64,000 bases of DNA from the NCBI GenBank assembly GCA_016928025.1, contig JAFGLN010000015.1, forward strand, positions 1 through 64,000. The letters run 5' to 3'. Positions within the stretch are counted from its first letter, which is position 1. Each line of letters starts with the position of its first letter. The position numbers were made by a program, and so were the translations under genes. Origin of the DNA: Deltaproteobacteria bacterium (GTDB taxonomy: Bacteria > Desulfobacterota > Syntrophia > Syntrophales > JAFGHS01). This document shows positions 42,722 through 61,102 of the stretch, one piece after another. The notes below the pieces were generated by a model, which worked only from the letters and a program-made list of their open reading frames with translations, ran no database searches and had not been told where the DNA came from.

Positions 42722-44263
42722 TTATTTTATAACGGCAACTTCCACGCGATTCCGACCGTTATTTTTTGCCTTGTACAAAGCGTCGTCCGCTTTTTTCAGG
42801 ACGGTCGGGGCATCATTGCCATGACCGGGAAAGGCGGCGACACCCAGGGAAATCGTCACGGCGCCAAGATCCACCCCCTGGTAATGAAAATTGTAGTTCT
42901 TGAGTTCGTCCCGCAATTGGTTCGCCCGCTGAGTGGCCACATTCAAAGGCATATCCGGCATAATCAAGACAAATTCCTCGCCCCCAAAGCGACAGACGAT
43001 ATCTTCCTTGCGAACATTATTTTGGAAAATGTCACTCAATATCTTAAGTAGATCATCCCCGGCATCATGGCCGTATGCATCGTTAAAAAGCTTGAAAAAG
43101 TCAATATCAACCATAATAATGCTGACCGGATGGCGTTTGCGCGCGGCCCGATGAAACTCACGCTCCAGACATTCTTCCATATAGCGTCGATTAAATAATC
43201 CGGTAAGAGGATCCCGAATGGCCTGGGCGCGCAATGTGTCCTGCATTTTCAGATTGGCCAACGACAATGCCAGGTGTTCGGCAACGACCAGGGCCAGTTC
43301 CTTGACGCCTCTCTCGTAGGCTTCGTCTTCATTATAAAATCCCAGGTGTAAAATGCCCTGCACCTGTCCTACGGCTTTCATAGGGATACACATAGCGCTA
43401 CAGATACCGATCCAATTATCGCTGTCACAAATGCAGCTGTTCAGAGTTGTTTTTTGGCCTCCTTCCGTCTTACCCTTCTTTTCCAAGGGTTTGCCAACTC
43501 TTAAGGCTTCACAGTCACCGGGAGCCAACATGATATCTTCATTTGAATAATTGCCCCATTTGACGACGGATCTCATTTTTTCGCAAGATTCATCCAAGGT
43601 ATACAGACTCCCGTTCGTCTTGGGAAATAATTGAGGGCCGTACTGCTTGATTATCGGTGACGCATCTTCGACATTCCGGCAGGTATGCAAAGCTTCGCCC
43701 ATCCTGCGCAAAAGGTTCATTCTACTGTTTTGCATCTCCAGTTCACAAACCCAGACTTTAAGCTTTTCATTTGCCCGGGCAAGCTCTTTTTCGGTTCTTT
43801 TGGCGTCCGTTAGATCATGACAGAACATCATATATTGGTCGCCAACGTTAACAAATTTAAATTCCACATAACGCTTCGCCCCGTCTTTGCAGATGACGTA
43901 TGTTTCAATTGAATCAATCTGCCGGCCATTTTGTATCGCTTTTGCGATATTATTCTGCCAACTATTGATAACTTTATCGCCTCCGCTTCTATCAGAATAA
44001 GAAACTCGCCACCAGTCATTCAGTGTTGCGATCTCCTGCCGGTCGTAGCCGAATGTTTCTTCAAATTTCCGGCTGAGATACAAAGTCTTCTGATCTCTAT
44101 CACTGACAACAACCGGCACCGGGGAAGATTCGACAAACGTTCGAATCAATTCATCAAATTTCAACCGTCTTTCTTCATCGAAATCCAGTTGTCCGACCTG
44201 TTGCCGAAATACTGATAATTCTTCAATAAGTTGGCGCTTTGTCTTTTTTTCGTCTTTTATCAT
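42722..44263 (-). CDS. Diguanylate cyclase with PAS and GAF domains
   Basis: RDPLTGLFNRRYMEECLERE ... CRFGGEEFVLIMPD (GGEEF). Confidence 0.93.
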   Translation of the reverse strand: MIKDEKKTKRQLIEELSVFRQQVGQLDFDEERRLKFDELIRTFVESSPVPVVVSDRDQKTLYLSRKFEETFGYDRQEIATLNDWWRVSYSDRSGGDKVINSWQNNIAKAIQNGRQIDSIETYVICKDGAKRYVEFKFVNVGDQYMMFCHDLTDAKRTEKELARANEKLKVWVCELEMQNSRMNLLRRMGEALHTCRNVEDASPIIKQYGPQLFPKTNGSLYTLDESCEKMRSVVKWGNYSNEDIMLAPGDCEALRVGKPLEKKGKTEGGQKTTLNSCICDSDNWIGICSAMCIPMKAVGQVQGILHLGFYNEDEAYERGVKELALVVAEHLALSLANLKMQDTLRAQAIRDPLTGLFNRRYMEECLEREFHRAARKRHPVSIIMVDIDFFKLFNDAYGHDAGDDLLKILSDIFQNNVRKEDIVCRFGGEEFVLIMPDMPLNVATQRANQLRDELKNYNFHYQGVDLGAVTISLGVAAFPGHGNDAPTVLKKADDALYKAKNNGRNRVEVAVIK

Positions 44264-52420: not shown

Positions 52421-52927
52421 TCAGTTCGTATATTTTTGTAGAGCTTTGAAGGCGTAAACGTCGTGGTTCAAAAGCTCAGCCCCAAACTGGATGTCATCCT
52501 CCGATTCAACAGCCCACTTGGGGAGGCATTTGATGTGAATCGGCCAATGATGGTCAGGCAAATGAAATATAATGCAGAGCTCGGAGGTTTTGCCATCTTT
52601 CGGGATTTCCAGCGTCGCATCTTTGGGAACAGACAATCGGACTCCCAAAAGCGAAATATCAAGGATGGCACCCTGCTCAAAGTCTCTTCTGTGCCAAGAC
52701 GGCTCACCGATGAAAGCATGAAGACGGGTGGGCTTCCGTTCAAGTCGCCGACGATTCGCGGCGCGATCCCCCTCGGCTTTATGTTCCTCCAGATACCGGC
52801 CGACAATGGATTCGACAACTGAGGAAATGCTCTGATTTTTCTTCATCGCAATATTTTCCAAAGCCCATCGCATTTCTGGCGTTGTCTGAATATAAATAAC
52901 ATTGTTTTTTTCTTCCATGATTGTCAC
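52421..52927 (-). CDS. PilZ domain protein with ribbon-helix-helix-like N-terminus
   Basis: N-term NNVIYIQTTPEMRWALENIAMKKNQSISSVVESIVGRYLEEH; C-term RRRLERKPTRLHAFI...GAILDISLLGVRLSV PilZ. Confidence 0.72.
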   Translation of the reverse strand: MTIMEEKNNVIYIQTTPEMRWALENIAMKKNQSISSVVESIVGRYLEEHKAEGDRAANRRRLERKPTRLHAFIGEPSWHRRDFEQGAILDISLLGVRLSVPKDATLEIPKDGKTSELCIIFHLPDHHWPIHIKCLPKWAVESEDDIQFGAELLNHDVYAFKALQKYTN

Positions 52928-56180: not shown

Positions 56181-59100
56181 TTACGGAAAAGCCATCAAGG
56201 TCATGGACACCGCCGTGTTGCCGGACGCGATGGTATTGGCCAGAGAGATACTATTTGAGCCGTAATACCATTGATTCATGTACCCGTCGGCCGTTACGAG
56301 GATTTTATAATCACTCCCCTCGACAAGCCCTGGGAATGAAAAGGTATTGTCCTGAACTTTTGTATAGCCTATATACTTTAAACCTTTATAGAGGAATACA
56401 TAGATATCTTTATCGGCGGGAAATATGGGGCTGCCGAACACATAGCCGGCGATTTCCTGGCCGAGAGGGATGGTGAAGTTCAGGGATATATCGGCGTTAT
56501 CAACGGTAAAGCTGTTCGATTGCAGGGGCAGATTACCGTCCGGAAGCACGGTCACCGTATAATTTCCGGCATGGATGAGTCCGGTTACTGCATAGGAGCC
56601 GTCTGCGGCGGTCGTCGTTCGGACAAAGAAACTCAGCAATTTCGATGACACCAGAACCGTCGCATTCTGCACAGGTGAATCATCGCTCATTTTGACCGTG
56701 CCGGAAACCTGATAGGTTGCGAGGGGTTTGGACAGAGTGAAATCGACGATCGTCCCCGACGAAGAGGGTTGTTGATCGGTCATCATCTGCCGTTCATAGT
56801 CTTTCTTCTGAGCAATGACGATATAATCGCTTTTAGTCTCATCGAGACCATAGATGGTGTAACCTCCCGTACTGTTGGTCATTGTGTAGACCGGCGTGGC
56901 CCCGTCCCGGGTGGCAAGAATCGTTGTCCCGGCGACGGGCTCGCCCTGGGTATCTTCAACAGTACCTTGAAAGGATGCGCCTTTTTCCATCGCCACCTGG
57001 TGGGTGACATTGGATGTCCCGATCGTCAGGTCCGCTGAGTAGTTACAATAGTCGGAATGGAAAACCTCAAGGGTGTAGTTGCCGCCCGGGACATCATGGA
57101 TGCTGTAGTTGCCGTTCGTATCGGAATAGTAGACCCGCCCGCCGCTCAAGATGCCCGTTTGACGGTCCTTGATATAATACATGGCGCCGGAAACCGGTTT
57201 GACGGGATTGGAATTGCTCTCGGTAATCGCACCGGATAGAACGGCTCCGCCGCCGATAACAAAATCTTTCGTTGTATCAACGCCGGCAACGATGGATGTT
57301 TTCTGGACCGGATAATTGCCGCTCAGGGGCTTCACGGATACGGAATAAGTAACACCGCTTCGCAGTCCGCCGACACTGTAATGACCATCAGCGCTCGTTA
57401 GTCCCAGGCTGCCCTCCGTTGCCGTGGAAACCGTAATCAACGCATTGGCAACCGGCTCCCCGCCCGCCGTGAGATATGTGACATTCCCTTCCAGCGTCCG
57501 ATCGCCTTCGGTGATGTCAATGTTGGTGTTTGCGATGGTCTGCCCGTTGTCAGTGATGATTCGGGGAAGGGCATAGGTCTCATTCTGGGTCGGCGTACCG
57601 TCCTCTTTAAAAAAATAGAAGATCTTCCCGTTTCCCTTGATGACAAAAATCAAATAGGTGCCGGGTGCCGCCTTGAGATCATATGTCCCGTCGGATATGG
57701 TCCTCGTAAACACCGTGGCGGAGGTATTGATCTCATATCCATAAACGGTCAATCCGCTGATATTGCCACCCGATTCGGAAACGGTGCCGGTGATATGGCT
57801 TTCGGGGACCGTCAGCATAAAATTGATATTCGTTGCGTTTTCCGCTGCAATACTCACATAATCGGCGTCATTGACGGTGTACTTACCGTCGTAATAGGTC
57901 ACGGGAACATCCGGCGCAACCAGAACGACCTGATAGTCGGCGGCAGGAACCAGCAAATCAACGACGTAGGCGCCATCGGCAACCACGGCTATCGACTTTT
58001 GCAGCATGCCGGACGCGGTCTTGACGGTGATGACGCCGCCGCCGGCAGGCAGGCCGGTGATTGTCCCGCTGATCGACTTCAGGACGGAGGTGTCAAAAAC
58101 GGTGGCGTTTTTAGCCGAAAGCAGATTTCCATAGGCAAGGTACCAATCATAATCACCGGGCGGCAGGAGGTCACTACACCACGTGCCGTCATCCGCCACA
58201 TCATAAACGCCGACGATTGTCGACTCAGAATTGACAACAAGAACGGAAAGGCCGGGGATGTTTCCTGCCGTCACCTGACTGCTGAGATAGACAGGCGGCT
58301 CCGTGTTCTCCACGGTAAACGTCGCACTGGCCCCGCTCGCCGCCGCCTGATTTCCCACCGTATCAGTTGCCGTCCCCGCCGCAATAGATATGCCGATACT
58401 GCCCTCTCCGCTGATGTTGGACAGGGTTACCGTCCGGGTAAAATTGCCGGAGCCCGATACCGCTGCGGTCCCATCGGCCGTTCCCGTTTTGTTTAAGGTT
58501 ATATCTTCGGCGGAAAGACTGATCGAAGCGGCTCCCGTATACGTCACCGTATAGCTGACAGGGCCTGAGTTTGTGCTCGCCGCTGAAGGACTGCCGATGG
58601 CCAGGGTGGGCGGCGTCGTGTCCAGTGTGATGGTCGCCGCCACAGGGGGTGACCAGTTACCGGCAGACCCTTTAAACTTCGCATAAATGGTCTTGACGCC
58701 GTCACCGGCGGTCAGGATCCATGGTTTCACCTCAGCAAACGGCTCTGCGACCGACCAGGCCGTCCCATCGTTACTGAATTGCATTTCGACAATCGGCACA
58801 GACGGATTGACGGGGGCTATATTGATGGCAACGGACACACTATTCGTGACGGCGGCACCGCTGTTGACGGTAATGGTTCCCAGGTTCGCGGTTGATACCT
58901 CCGGAGTCGGTATGCTTTCCAGACCTCGTGTATCGATGGCCGTCACGACAAAATAATAGACGGTTTGATCTTCTGAAAAATGCAGGGTGATCCGGGTATT
59001 GTTTTTATCGATGGTGATCGGTTTCGGGTCATTAAACGGATCAATGGATATGGGATTACCTCCCACCAGCGTATACGAAGCGGCATAAGCGGTGGTATTT

Positions 59101-59327
59101 AAGGACTCAGGCTGTTGGGAAACCGTGTAATAATAGACCCGATAGGACTGAAGATACGGGGCGTCAATACTTTCATCCCACATCAGGGTTATATCTTGTT
59201 CCGCTGCGTGGACAGTCCCCGTGAAGGAAATGGATGCAGCTATGCCAATGATTAAAAACAGGCAAAAGATGGAAAAGGCCGTGTCAAAGAATTTTAAAAG
59301 ACGGGATACTTCTTTACAACATCTCAT
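56181..59327 (-). CDS. Large secreted/surface protein with fibronectin/Ig-like modules and multiple carboxypeptidase-regulatory-like repeats
   Basis: Signal/TM segment FFDTAFSIFCLFLIIGIAASISFTGTVHA; repeated GTVxxxxGxPVAGATVxxxxxxGxYxIxGLxxGxYxV units; 1048 aa. Confidence 0.85.
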   Translation of the reverse strand: MRCCKEVSRLLKFFDTAFSIFCLFLIIGIAASISFTGTVHAAEQDITLMWDESIDAPYLQSYRVYYYTVSQQPESLNTTAYAASYTLVGGNPISIDPFNDPKPITIDKNNTRITLHFSEDQTVYYFVVTAIDTRGLESIPTPEVSTANLGTITVNSGAAVTNSVSVAINIAPVNPSVPIVEMQFSNDGTAWSVAEPFAEVKPWILTAGDGVKTIYAKFKGSAGNWSPPVAATITLDTTPPTLAIGSPSAASTNSGPVSYTVTYTGAASISLSAEDITLNKTGTADGTAAVSGSGNFTRTVTLSNISGEGSIGISIAAGTATDTVGNQAAASGASATFTVENTEPPVYLSSQVTAGNIPGLSVLVVNSESTIVGVYDVADDGTWCSDLLPPGDYDWYLAYGNLLSAKNATVFDTSVLKSISGTITGLPAGGGVITVKTASGMLQKSIAVVADGAYVVDLLVPAADYQVVLVAPDVPVTYYDGKYTVNDADYVSIAAENATNINFMLTVPESHITGTVSESGGNISGLTVYGYEINTSATVFTRTISDGTYDLKAAPGTYLIFVIKGNGKIFYFFKEDGTPTQNETYALPRIITDNGQTIANTNIDITEGDRTLEGNVTYLTAGGEPVANALITVSTATEGSLGLTSADGHYSVGGLRSGVTYSVSVKPLSGNYPVQKTSIVAGVDTTKDFVIGGGAVLSGAITESNSNPVKPVSGAMYYIKDRQTGILSGGRVYYSDTNGNYSIHDVPGGNYTLEVFHSDYCNYSADLTIGTSNVTHQVAMEKGASFQGTVEDTQGEPVAGTTILATRDGATPVYTMTNSTGGYTIYGLDETKSDYIVIAQKKDYERQMMTDQQPSSSGTIVDFTLSKPLATYQVSGTVKMSDDSPVQNATVLVSSKLLSFFVRTTTAADGSYAVTGLIHAGNYTVTVLPDGNLPLQSNSFTVDNADISLNFTIPLGQEIAGYVFGSPIFPADKDIYVFLYKGLKYIGYTKVQDNTFSFPGLVEGSDYKILVTADGYMNQWYYGSNSISLANTIASGNTAVSMTLMAFP

Positions 59328-59387
59328 AGCAGAACCTCAGTGCTTAGTTCCGCCGGGCAAAACCAGCATGACCGAGGTGCTGCTATT

Positions 59388-59475
59388 GCCTGGCAACCCT
59401 TCTGCCATATCCCGGTTCAGGACTTAGGCAAGTGGCTTTGCGTCCCATACTTTCGTATGGTTTGCCTTTTTCAGG
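59388..59475 (-). ncRNA. c-di-GMP-I (GEMM) riboswitch aptamer
   Basis: Minus strand: CCTGAAAAAGGCAAACCATACGAAAGTATGGGACGCAAAGCCACTTGCCTAAGTCCTGAACCGGGATATGGCAGAAGGGTTGCCAGG, with GGCAAACC, CCATAC-GAAA-GTATGG, GGGACGCAAAGCC and GCCTAA consensus blocks. Confidence 0.9.
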
Positions 59476-59695
59476 TTTTATCCTCCGTTATCCAACGAGG
59501 TATTTTTAATGATGTTAAGCCATGATATTCAATTCAATCGCCTAACTTTATCTACGTTATCAATATCGGCAAAATATCCCAATGACTTTAGGTCGGTTTT
59601 TCAAATATTTTTCAGCAGATTCATTATTTTCTTCGTGTGAATATTTTGAAGAGATGATCCCTGCATTTTACGTTCTTGACAGCTGAAACTTACTT

Positions 59696-61102
59696 TTATC
59701 CGGCGGCCCGTCTTGATACCCATTCGAAGTATGTTCCGATAGAATAGACAGCGTCCTGTATTTTGGCATATACGGGAAACCCGGCTTTTCTCAGGGTGGC
59801 AAATGTTGCAATCCTGGCCCGTTCCGCATCCAGATTGTCTTCAACGAAGCTGGACAGAATGGGAACAACCGGCTTTTTAATTTGTTCGGCCATCTTGAAG
59901 ATGGTTTCCGCATTATTTTTGACGTTGAGAAAGAATTCCGACCGCATAATGTATTCAACAGAAAAATAGGGGATAATCACATCGATCCCGTCATCTTCAT
60001 CAAGGGCTTTCATCGTATGCAGCATGACGTTCAGATCAAAACCAAAGGCGCCCAGATCGACAGGGTTGGCCGTCGAGGTATTGACGCCCCTGATCACTTC
60101 GCCGATTTTTTGCTGCGTTTTTTTATTCAATTCAGGCAGATGAAGTCCCGCCTCCACGGCAAGATCGGTGAAGAGGACGGAAACCCCTCCGCCGGCACCC
60201 AGGAATCCCACGCGTTTCCCTCTCAATACTTTTCCGTAGGTTCCCAGCATGACGAGGTCCATCATCTGATCGAAATCATCAACTAAAAGCCCCCCATGCT
60301 GCCGGACAGCAGCGGCCCATATGGTATAATTGCTGGCCATGGCACCCGTATGGCTGGCGGCGGCCTTCGAACCTGTATCGGTCTTCCCTCCCTTGAGAAT
60401 AATCACCGGTTTGATCGATGTTACCCGTTTGAGGGTCTTGAGAAACACCTCGGCATCCTTAATGTCTTCAATATAACAGGCAATCAGCCGGACACCTTTG
60501 TCATCGGCCAGATAGTCGAGATAATCTTCAACTCGAAGGTCGATCTGGTTTCCGTAAGAGACGACTTTGTTGAGAAATATTTTTCTTGTCGTCGACGTCG
60601 CAAGAAAATTCCCTGTGACGCCGCCTGATTGCCCTAAAAATGCGACGGGGCCAGTGGATGCATCCTGGACACCGGGAGTGAATGCCAGTTTCGATTCGGC
60701 ACAAAACACGCCGACGCAGTTGGGACCGACAATTCTAAGGTCCCCTTTCCGGGCTTCCCGGACCATCTCTTCTTCCAATTGCCGGTTTCCCGTTTCTCCA
60801 AACCCGGACGTGAAAAAATGAATAAATTTAAATTTATTGCGGACGGCCGCCTTGACGATCTCGATGGATTGCTCGACAGGCGCCGCAACGATGGCATAAT
60901 CAACCGGTTCGGGAAGCTCATCAAGGGACGGATAGGCTTTGACGCCGTCCACCTCATCTCGACGCGGATTAACCGGATAGAGGGCTCCGTTGAAGCCGCT
61001 TGCCCGCAATATTTGGAAATAGGGCATCTTCCCTCCGCCAAGATTGTCGGAGGCACCGATGACCGCCACACTTTTTGGATAAAATAATTTTTCAAGATTC
61101 AT
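59696..61102 (-). CDS. Acyl-CoA synthetase (ADP-forming)-type alpha subunit (CoA-binding/succinyl-CoA ligase-like), no ATP-grasp domain
   Basis: FYPKSVAVIGASDNLGGGKMP, GPVAFLGQSGGVTGNF, LKGGKTDTGSKAAASHTGAMA; 468 aa. Confidence 0.85.
   Translation of the reverse strand: MNLEKLFYPKSVAVIGASDNLGGGKMPYFQILRASGFNGALYPVNPRRDEVDGVKAYPSLDELPEPVDYAIVAAPVEQSIEIVKAAVRNKFKFIHFFTSGFGETGNRQLEEEMVREARKGDLRIVGPNCVGVFCAESKLAFTPGVQDASTGPVAFLGQSGGVTGNFLATSTTRKIFLNKVVSYGNQIDLRVEDYLDYLADDKGVRLIACYIEDIKDAEVFLKTLKRVTSIKPVIILKGGKTDTGSKAAASHTGAMASNYTIWAAAVRQHGGLLVDDFDQMMDLVMLGTYGKVLRGKRVGFLGAGGGVSVLFTDLAVEAGLHLPELNKKTQQKIGEVIRGVNTSTANPVDLGAFGFDLNVMLHTMKALDEDDGIDVIIPYFSVEYIMRSEFFLNVKNNAETIFKMAEQIKKPVVPILSSFVEDNLDAERARIATFATLRKAGFPVYAKIQDAVYSIGTYFEWVSRRAAG

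Follow-up and report, generated by a model that had tools for sequence, protein, structure and literature searches.

Vc2 (tfoY, Vibrio cholerae), a close described relative of the leader analyzed here, reportedly masks the ribosome-binding site, to judge by the title of Inuzuka et al. 2018. It is a GEMM-I translational off switch, in which binding of c-di-GMP restricts translation (PMC7371385). In Cd1 (Clostridioides difficile), the aptamer and a terminator coexist and compete with a transiently stable antiterminator, while the pilM riboswitch has cGAMP as its ligand and is an ON switch through termination avoidance (PMC9262584). In Bc1, a c-di-GMP-I riboswitch of the Bacillus cereus group, the ribosome-binding site and AUG are able to enter a stem (PMC11218506).

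The leader described here lies in the window, by which we mean the whole 64,000-nucleotide stretch of Deltaproteobacteria DNA that was analyzed. Like Vc2, it has a GEMM-I aptamer with a predicted translational OFF response, and it differs from Vc2 in that the sequestering arm starts two bases past P1, the hairpin includes the start codon, this codon is 61 nt past the aptamer, and the target gene encodes a secreted fn3 protein. The predicted OFF logic is like that of Cd1, with a repressive hairpin compatible with the bound aptamer and a transient alternative fold that uses the P1 3' strand; whereas Cd1 acts by transcription termination, the leader here has no terminator and would hide the Shine-Dalgarno (SD) sequence and start codon. 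By analogy, the platform is predicted to work like a cross between Vc2 and Cd1. The pilM and Geobacter GEMM-Ib riboswitches share a related aptamer and a formerly delta-proteobacterial lineage with the window leader but differ from it at G20 and in its translational platform. Bc1 is likewise GEMM-I, with a ribosome-binding site and AUG that can be drawn into a stem, but it has two intrinsic terminators and dual control, and the leader here is without such terminators.

The original prediction had placed a GEMM aptamer at 59475-59388 on the minus strand. The Rfam RF01051 model (c-di-GMP-I, GEMM-I) matched this element over model positions 1-87 with 84 bits (gathering threshold, 35) and an E value of 4.2e-15, which confirms the aptamer and shifts its coordinates by one base, to 59476-59389. 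All 22 annotated pairs are canonical, P2 carries a GAAA-type tetraloop (CGAAAG), and the ligand-pocket sequence GGGACGCAAAG is present, where the assignment of pocket bases other than G20 is one that we presume. By every feature testable here, this element belongs to the GEMM-I class. The features used below are as follows.

59389-59476, minus strand: c-di-GMP-I (GEMM-I) aptamer (Rfam RF01051).
59472-59475, minus strand: P1 5' strand CCUG, which pairs with CAGG 59392-59389 in folds (own versus swapped strands, z -4.9, n=25).
59465, minus strand: G at the Vc2 G20 position, a ligand-contacting base, preceding CAAACC (sequence; G in 104/104 leaders of the order; PMC11218506).
59389-59392, minus strand: P1 3' strand CAGG, used by both P1 and the antisequestor (alternative folds).
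59386-59394, minus strand: antisequestor 5' side GCCAGGCAA, which pairs with UUGCCCGGC in transcripts that stop short of the SD arm.
59371-59386, minus strand: arm a, sequestering (AUAGCAGCACCUCGGU), which pairs with 59341-59326 in the full-length fold (compensatory changes in relatives).
59364-59368, minus strand: arm b, UGCUG, which pairs within arm a in the antisequestor hairpin (truncated-transcript fold).
59352-59360, minus strand: antisequestor 3' side UUGCCCGGC (alternative folds; swap test of the homologous pairing, z -5.8).
59346-59364, minus strand: OFF-state inner hairpin, GGUUUUGC 59364-59357 with GCGGAACU 59353-59346 (minimum-energy fold; swap test of the homologous pairing, P 0.002).
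59326-59341, minus strand: arm c, from SD GAGG (59338-59335) to the A and U of the start codon (sequence; helix with arm a).
56181-59327, minus strand: regulated gene, encoding a 1048-aa secreted protein with a signal peptide, an N-terminal fn3 domain, and CarboxypepD_reg repeats (Pfam domain matches; paralog comparison).
42722-44263, minus strand: PAS-GGDEF diguanylate cyclase with the motif GGEEF, a possible ligand source (PF00990, 168 bits; sequence).

The 12-of-13 complementarity originally proposed between AUAGCAGCACCUC (59386-59374), which starts two bases past the aptamer end, and GAGGUUCUGCUAU (59338-59326) is exact. In the minimum-energy fold this helix lengthens to 59386-59371 with 59341-59326 (15 of 16 positions paired, one C-U mismatch at 59379/59333) and encloses an inner hairpin, 59364-59357/59353-59346. 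Its 3' arm covers the A and U of the AUG at 59327, as had been stated, and additionally the SD sequence GAGG (59338-59335). We found that the 191-nt leader folds with -66.9 kcal/mol (z -4.24; 0/200 shuffles equally stable) and that shuffling the 5' arm 300 times never gave a duplex as strong as the real one. A scan of 59250-59760 found no intrinsic terminator (hairpin plus U run) on the riboswitch strand in the platform, and the only terminator-like site in this interval is on the opposite strand, within P2. Since the platform is without an intrinsic terminator, a transcription-terminating GEMM-I riboswitch of the Cd1 or pilM type was rejected, and translation, not termination, is the likely level of control.

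In an order-level sample of 155 genomes, we found GEMM-I matches in 79 and inspected 104 leaders; a class-level search gave the same result, as the class sample comprises one order. The platform layout is present in 23 of the 104 leaders (22 besides the window leader), which span four families (f1, f2, f6, and f16) and share a CAGG/CGGG-type P1 strand, directly followed by a GCAGCACCUCC-type arm and then by a GGAGGUGUUGUC-type SD arm, with the start codon 59 to 71 nt past the aptamer. The layout was also found in 11 of the 28 best leaders of a phylum-wide sample, some of which have very different arms (for example, GCAGUACCUCC/GGGGGGUACUGC), and in one Syntrophorhabdus genome (class Syntrophorhabdia, Thermodesulfobacteriota). 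In all 35 platform leaders, the start codon lies 49 to 73 nt past the aptamer.

The sequestering helix covaries in these relatives. In a sequence-only alignment of 16 leaders, 82.8% of the cells in its 12 aligned pairs are paired, compared to 37 to 61% when the register is slid by 1 to 3 bases, and two-sided changes occur at 7 of the 12 pairs. None of 500 shuffles reached the observed paired cells, two-sided changes, or covariation score, figures that carry some selection, as the leaders were chosen partly for arm likeness. Because relatedness can inflate a shuffle test, we added an arm-swap test in which the arm a of each of 25 less redundant leaders was paired with the arm c of all the others. 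This test is less prone to selection, since all of its leaders have an SD-like and an anti-SD-like arm. Own arms pair with a mean of -17.85 kcal/mol and swapped arms with -14.23 kcal/mol (z -6.2; 0/50,000 permutations), an effect that persists when the SD bases are left out (z -4.3, n=25). As in Vc2, the platform is thus predicted to be able to hide the ribosome-binding site, through a covarying helix over the SD sequence and AUG. Recurrence of this helix at a similar start-codon distance in more than 30 leaders supports the translational control by a GEMM-I aptamer that had been suggested for this gene.

The remaining GEMM-I leaders in the order stand upstream of genes for prepilin peptidase, pilin-like proteins, and other products. 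Leaders of family f15 (L085-L091 and L121-L130) often precede a prepilin peptidase gene (FGAAIGSFLNVC...), and in these leaders a shorter pairing, UCCAG:CUGGA, is possible close to the ribosome-binding site. We also observed two to four tandem c-di-GMP-I aptamers, ~75 to 165 nt apart, in several genomes of family f15 (L118, L119, L120, and L083; G123:C38, G114:C44, G109:C84, and G110:C102).

A third element had been overlooked in the original prediction: an antisequestor in which GCCAGGCAA (59394-59386) pairs with UUGCCCGGC (59360-59352). Its 5' side consists of the P1 3' strand of the aptamer (CAGG, 59392-59389) and adjoining bases. In the folds, its formation disrupts P1 and withholds arm a from the SD sequence, and UGCUG (59368-59364) pairs into arm a; the antisequestor and the combination of P1 with the SD helix are mutually exclusive. 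By computed energies, which contain neither ligand nor tertiary contacts, the antisequestor is favored by 6.3 kcal/mol at a transcript length of 127 nt, by 10.6 kcal/mol at 130 nt, by 6.0 kcal/mol at 136 to 142 nt, and by 2.3 kcal/mol at 145 nt; the two folds are nearly equal at 148 nt, and from 154 nt, with arm c transcribed, aptamer plus sequestor is preferred by 6.9 to 8.8 kcal/mol. This crossover in stability with transcript length implies an OFF switch that operates during transcription. In the complete leader, the sequestered state is preferred by 8.8 kcal/mol even without ligand, so that a purely thermodynamic model predicts a leader that is permanently OFF and switching needs kinetic trapping. 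The barrier to refolding from antisequestor to sequestor is ~20 kcal/mol along an estimated path, a value that is an upper bound.

The antisequestor is the less certain of the helices. Its swap test gave a z of -5.8 (n=25 leaders), but it did not pass either of two other tests: 46 of 500 column shuffles reached its covariation in the 16-row sequence-only alignment, and the swap test was not significant in the ten nearest leaders alone (P 0.18). The column-shuffle result arises partly from a one-base offset of the first leader and a "GGGCGA" group in the alignment. Pairing of the P1 3' strand with downstream sequence was also considered as a marker of the platform and was rejected as non-discriminating, as it was predicted in controls too (0.53 versus 0.66).

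We consider it likely that this leader is a c-di-GMP-I riboswitch that acts co-transcriptionally, under kinetic control, and that high c-di-GMP turns translation of the fn3/carboxypeptidase-regulatory-repeat protein OFF; ligand binding, the direction of the response, its kinetic nature, and the effect on translation are all predicted. Without ligand, the CAGG strand of P1 and the next bases would form the antisequestor GCCAGGCAA:UUGCCCGGC once its 3' side is transcribed, opening P1 and trapping arm a in a hairpin, and the SD/AUG arm made later would be free for translation. c-di-GMP bound during transcription of the first ~30 nt past the aptamer would keep P1 closed and block the antisequestor, and arm a would then pair with the SD sequence and start codon, turning translation OFF. 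The OFF direction is predicted because the antisequestor, which frees the SD sequence, is incompatible with P1.

In other bacteria, high c-di-GMP commonly induces surface adhesins. An ON switch, in which c-di-GMP would free the SD sequence and start translation as for an adhesin needed at high c-di-GMP, has that precedent, and gbpA is promoted by Vc1 when c-di-GMP is high (PMC11218506). We regard this direction as unlikely here, as the SD-freeing antisequestor is the very element that P1 formation precludes and, once P1 has formed, arm a is available and has the SD arm as its only strong partner left, with no equally strong competitor for it in the bound state. It is improbable, too, that the leader is constitutively closed, with a helix that lowers translation and an aptamer that acts, if at all, on RNA stability, through Rho termination, or through an early end of transcription, and not by switching this helix. 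At equilibrium the sequestered state is indeed preferred whether or not ligand is present, and the title of a reference in PMC7371385 reports an RNA-stability effect for Vc2, but the alternative pairing, which draws on strands of both P1 and arm a and recurs in relatives (z -5.8), would be superfluous in a purely static hairpin.

The co-transcriptional OFF reading takes c-di-GMP to be the ligand. G immediately 5' of CAAACC, which had been noted at this locus, is present at 59465 and in all 104 GEMM-I leaders examined from the order. We take A at position 20 to be the mark of the GEMM-Ib cGAMP class, and the window aptamer has G there. Work on G20A gives indirect support to A20 as this mark (PMC6274999), and in Vc2 the ligand is contacted at G20 (PMC11218506). 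Nine GGDEF matches were found in the genome, one of them inside the window, in the PAS-GGDEF gene at 42722-44263, ~15 kb from the riboswitch. Its product keeps FND..YGH..GD, presumably the pattern of an ordinary diguanylate cyclase. Because of G20 and the diguanylate cyclases in the genome, including the one in the window, the ligand is probably c-di-GMP. Although 3',3'-cGAMP is sensed by related Geobacter aptamers (PMC8835794), it is very unlikely to be the ligand here, given G at position 20 in this and every other leader of the order and the FND..YGH..GD of the window enzyme, whose selectivity we assume. The window also encodes, at 52421-52927, a 168-aa protein with PilZ-like sequence features (RRRLERKPTR, DISLLGVRL), a possible c-di-GMP effector that had no Pfam match at 0.001.

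That the aptamer and arms are a chance or vestigial arrangement is scarcely credible: a genome search found this to be the sole GEMM-I of the genome and the one congener genome examined has none, but an 84-bit aptamer, a fold z of -4.24, compensatory changes, and recurrence in other families and classes stand against it, and the comparative data from relatives rule out chance or a lone occurrence.

The regulated gene occupies 56181-59327, and the carboxypeptidase-regulatory repeats ascribed to its 1048-aa product were found (CarboxypepD_reg, 129 bits) in the C-terminal half. The protein had been called giant; it is large, and at 1048 aa that label is relative. We also found an N-terminal fn3 domain, absent from the original prediction, at residues 40-137 (28.1 bits; cutoff, 25). 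In 17 of the 23 platform genes of the order (one more is cut at a contig end), the encoded protein begins with a signal peptide and then an fn3-like domain (AAEVTLAWDPNPEPDIAGYKIYYG and similar), and the fn3 cutoff was exceeded in 6 of 7 platform proteins tested with Pfam; by eye, the 11 platform genes of the phylum have a similar signal-peptide/fn3 start. The C termini of the platform proteins vary, with PKD, BACON, CFI-box-CTERM (NF041770), or carboxypeptidase-regulatory repeats. In two leaders, L003 (G064:C35) and L069 (G032:C75), the protein encoded behind the same platform is a small one predicted to lie in the membrane (219 and 171 aa, respectively); neither is an fn3 protein, and no Pfam match was found for either.

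A paralog in the same genome (L063:12203-15229; contig C48, ~76.2 to 79.2 kb, outside the window and ~17 kb from the window gene) shares residues 266-1044 of the window protein, its C-terminal three quarters, at 37% identity. Its N terminus differs and is without fn3, and its neighborhood encodes secretin, T2SSE (GspE-type) ATPase, STN, cohesin-domain, and CFI-box-CTERM proteins. No Rfam riboswitch match up to an E value of 1 was found in the stretches at this paralog and at the G042 homolog. Because the riboswitch-less paralog shares the C terminus and differs at the N terminus, the comparison suggests that the leader and N-terminal module were joined to an existing C-terminal region.

Literature searches outside subscription journals found neither a link of c-di-GMP riboswitches to fibronectin type III in Deltaproteobacteria nor work on the GEMM motif with fn3 or on the platform itself. 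The leader is probably a c-di-GMP-controlled off switch for translation, an established type of device in a new, widespread setting, with the same layout before related surface-protein genes across Desulfobacterota. We give about even weight to the broader proposal of a portable Desulfobacterota cassette, in which a GEMM-I aptamer, an antisequestor/sequestor platform, and a signal-peptide/fn3 module stand before differing C-terminal modules (PKD, BACON, CFI-box-CTERM, and carboxypeptidase-regulatory repeats). If so, a family of surface proteins would be under one kinetic c-di-GMP off switch, and its many natural arm variants could serve the study of kinetic control in a translational riboswitch. 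The mechanism would offer a testable OFF control of surface proteins in a large group of mostly uncultured syntrophic and sulfate-reducing relatives, and the fn3 proteins would be made at low, not high, c-di-GMP, a reversal of the usual rule for adhesins.
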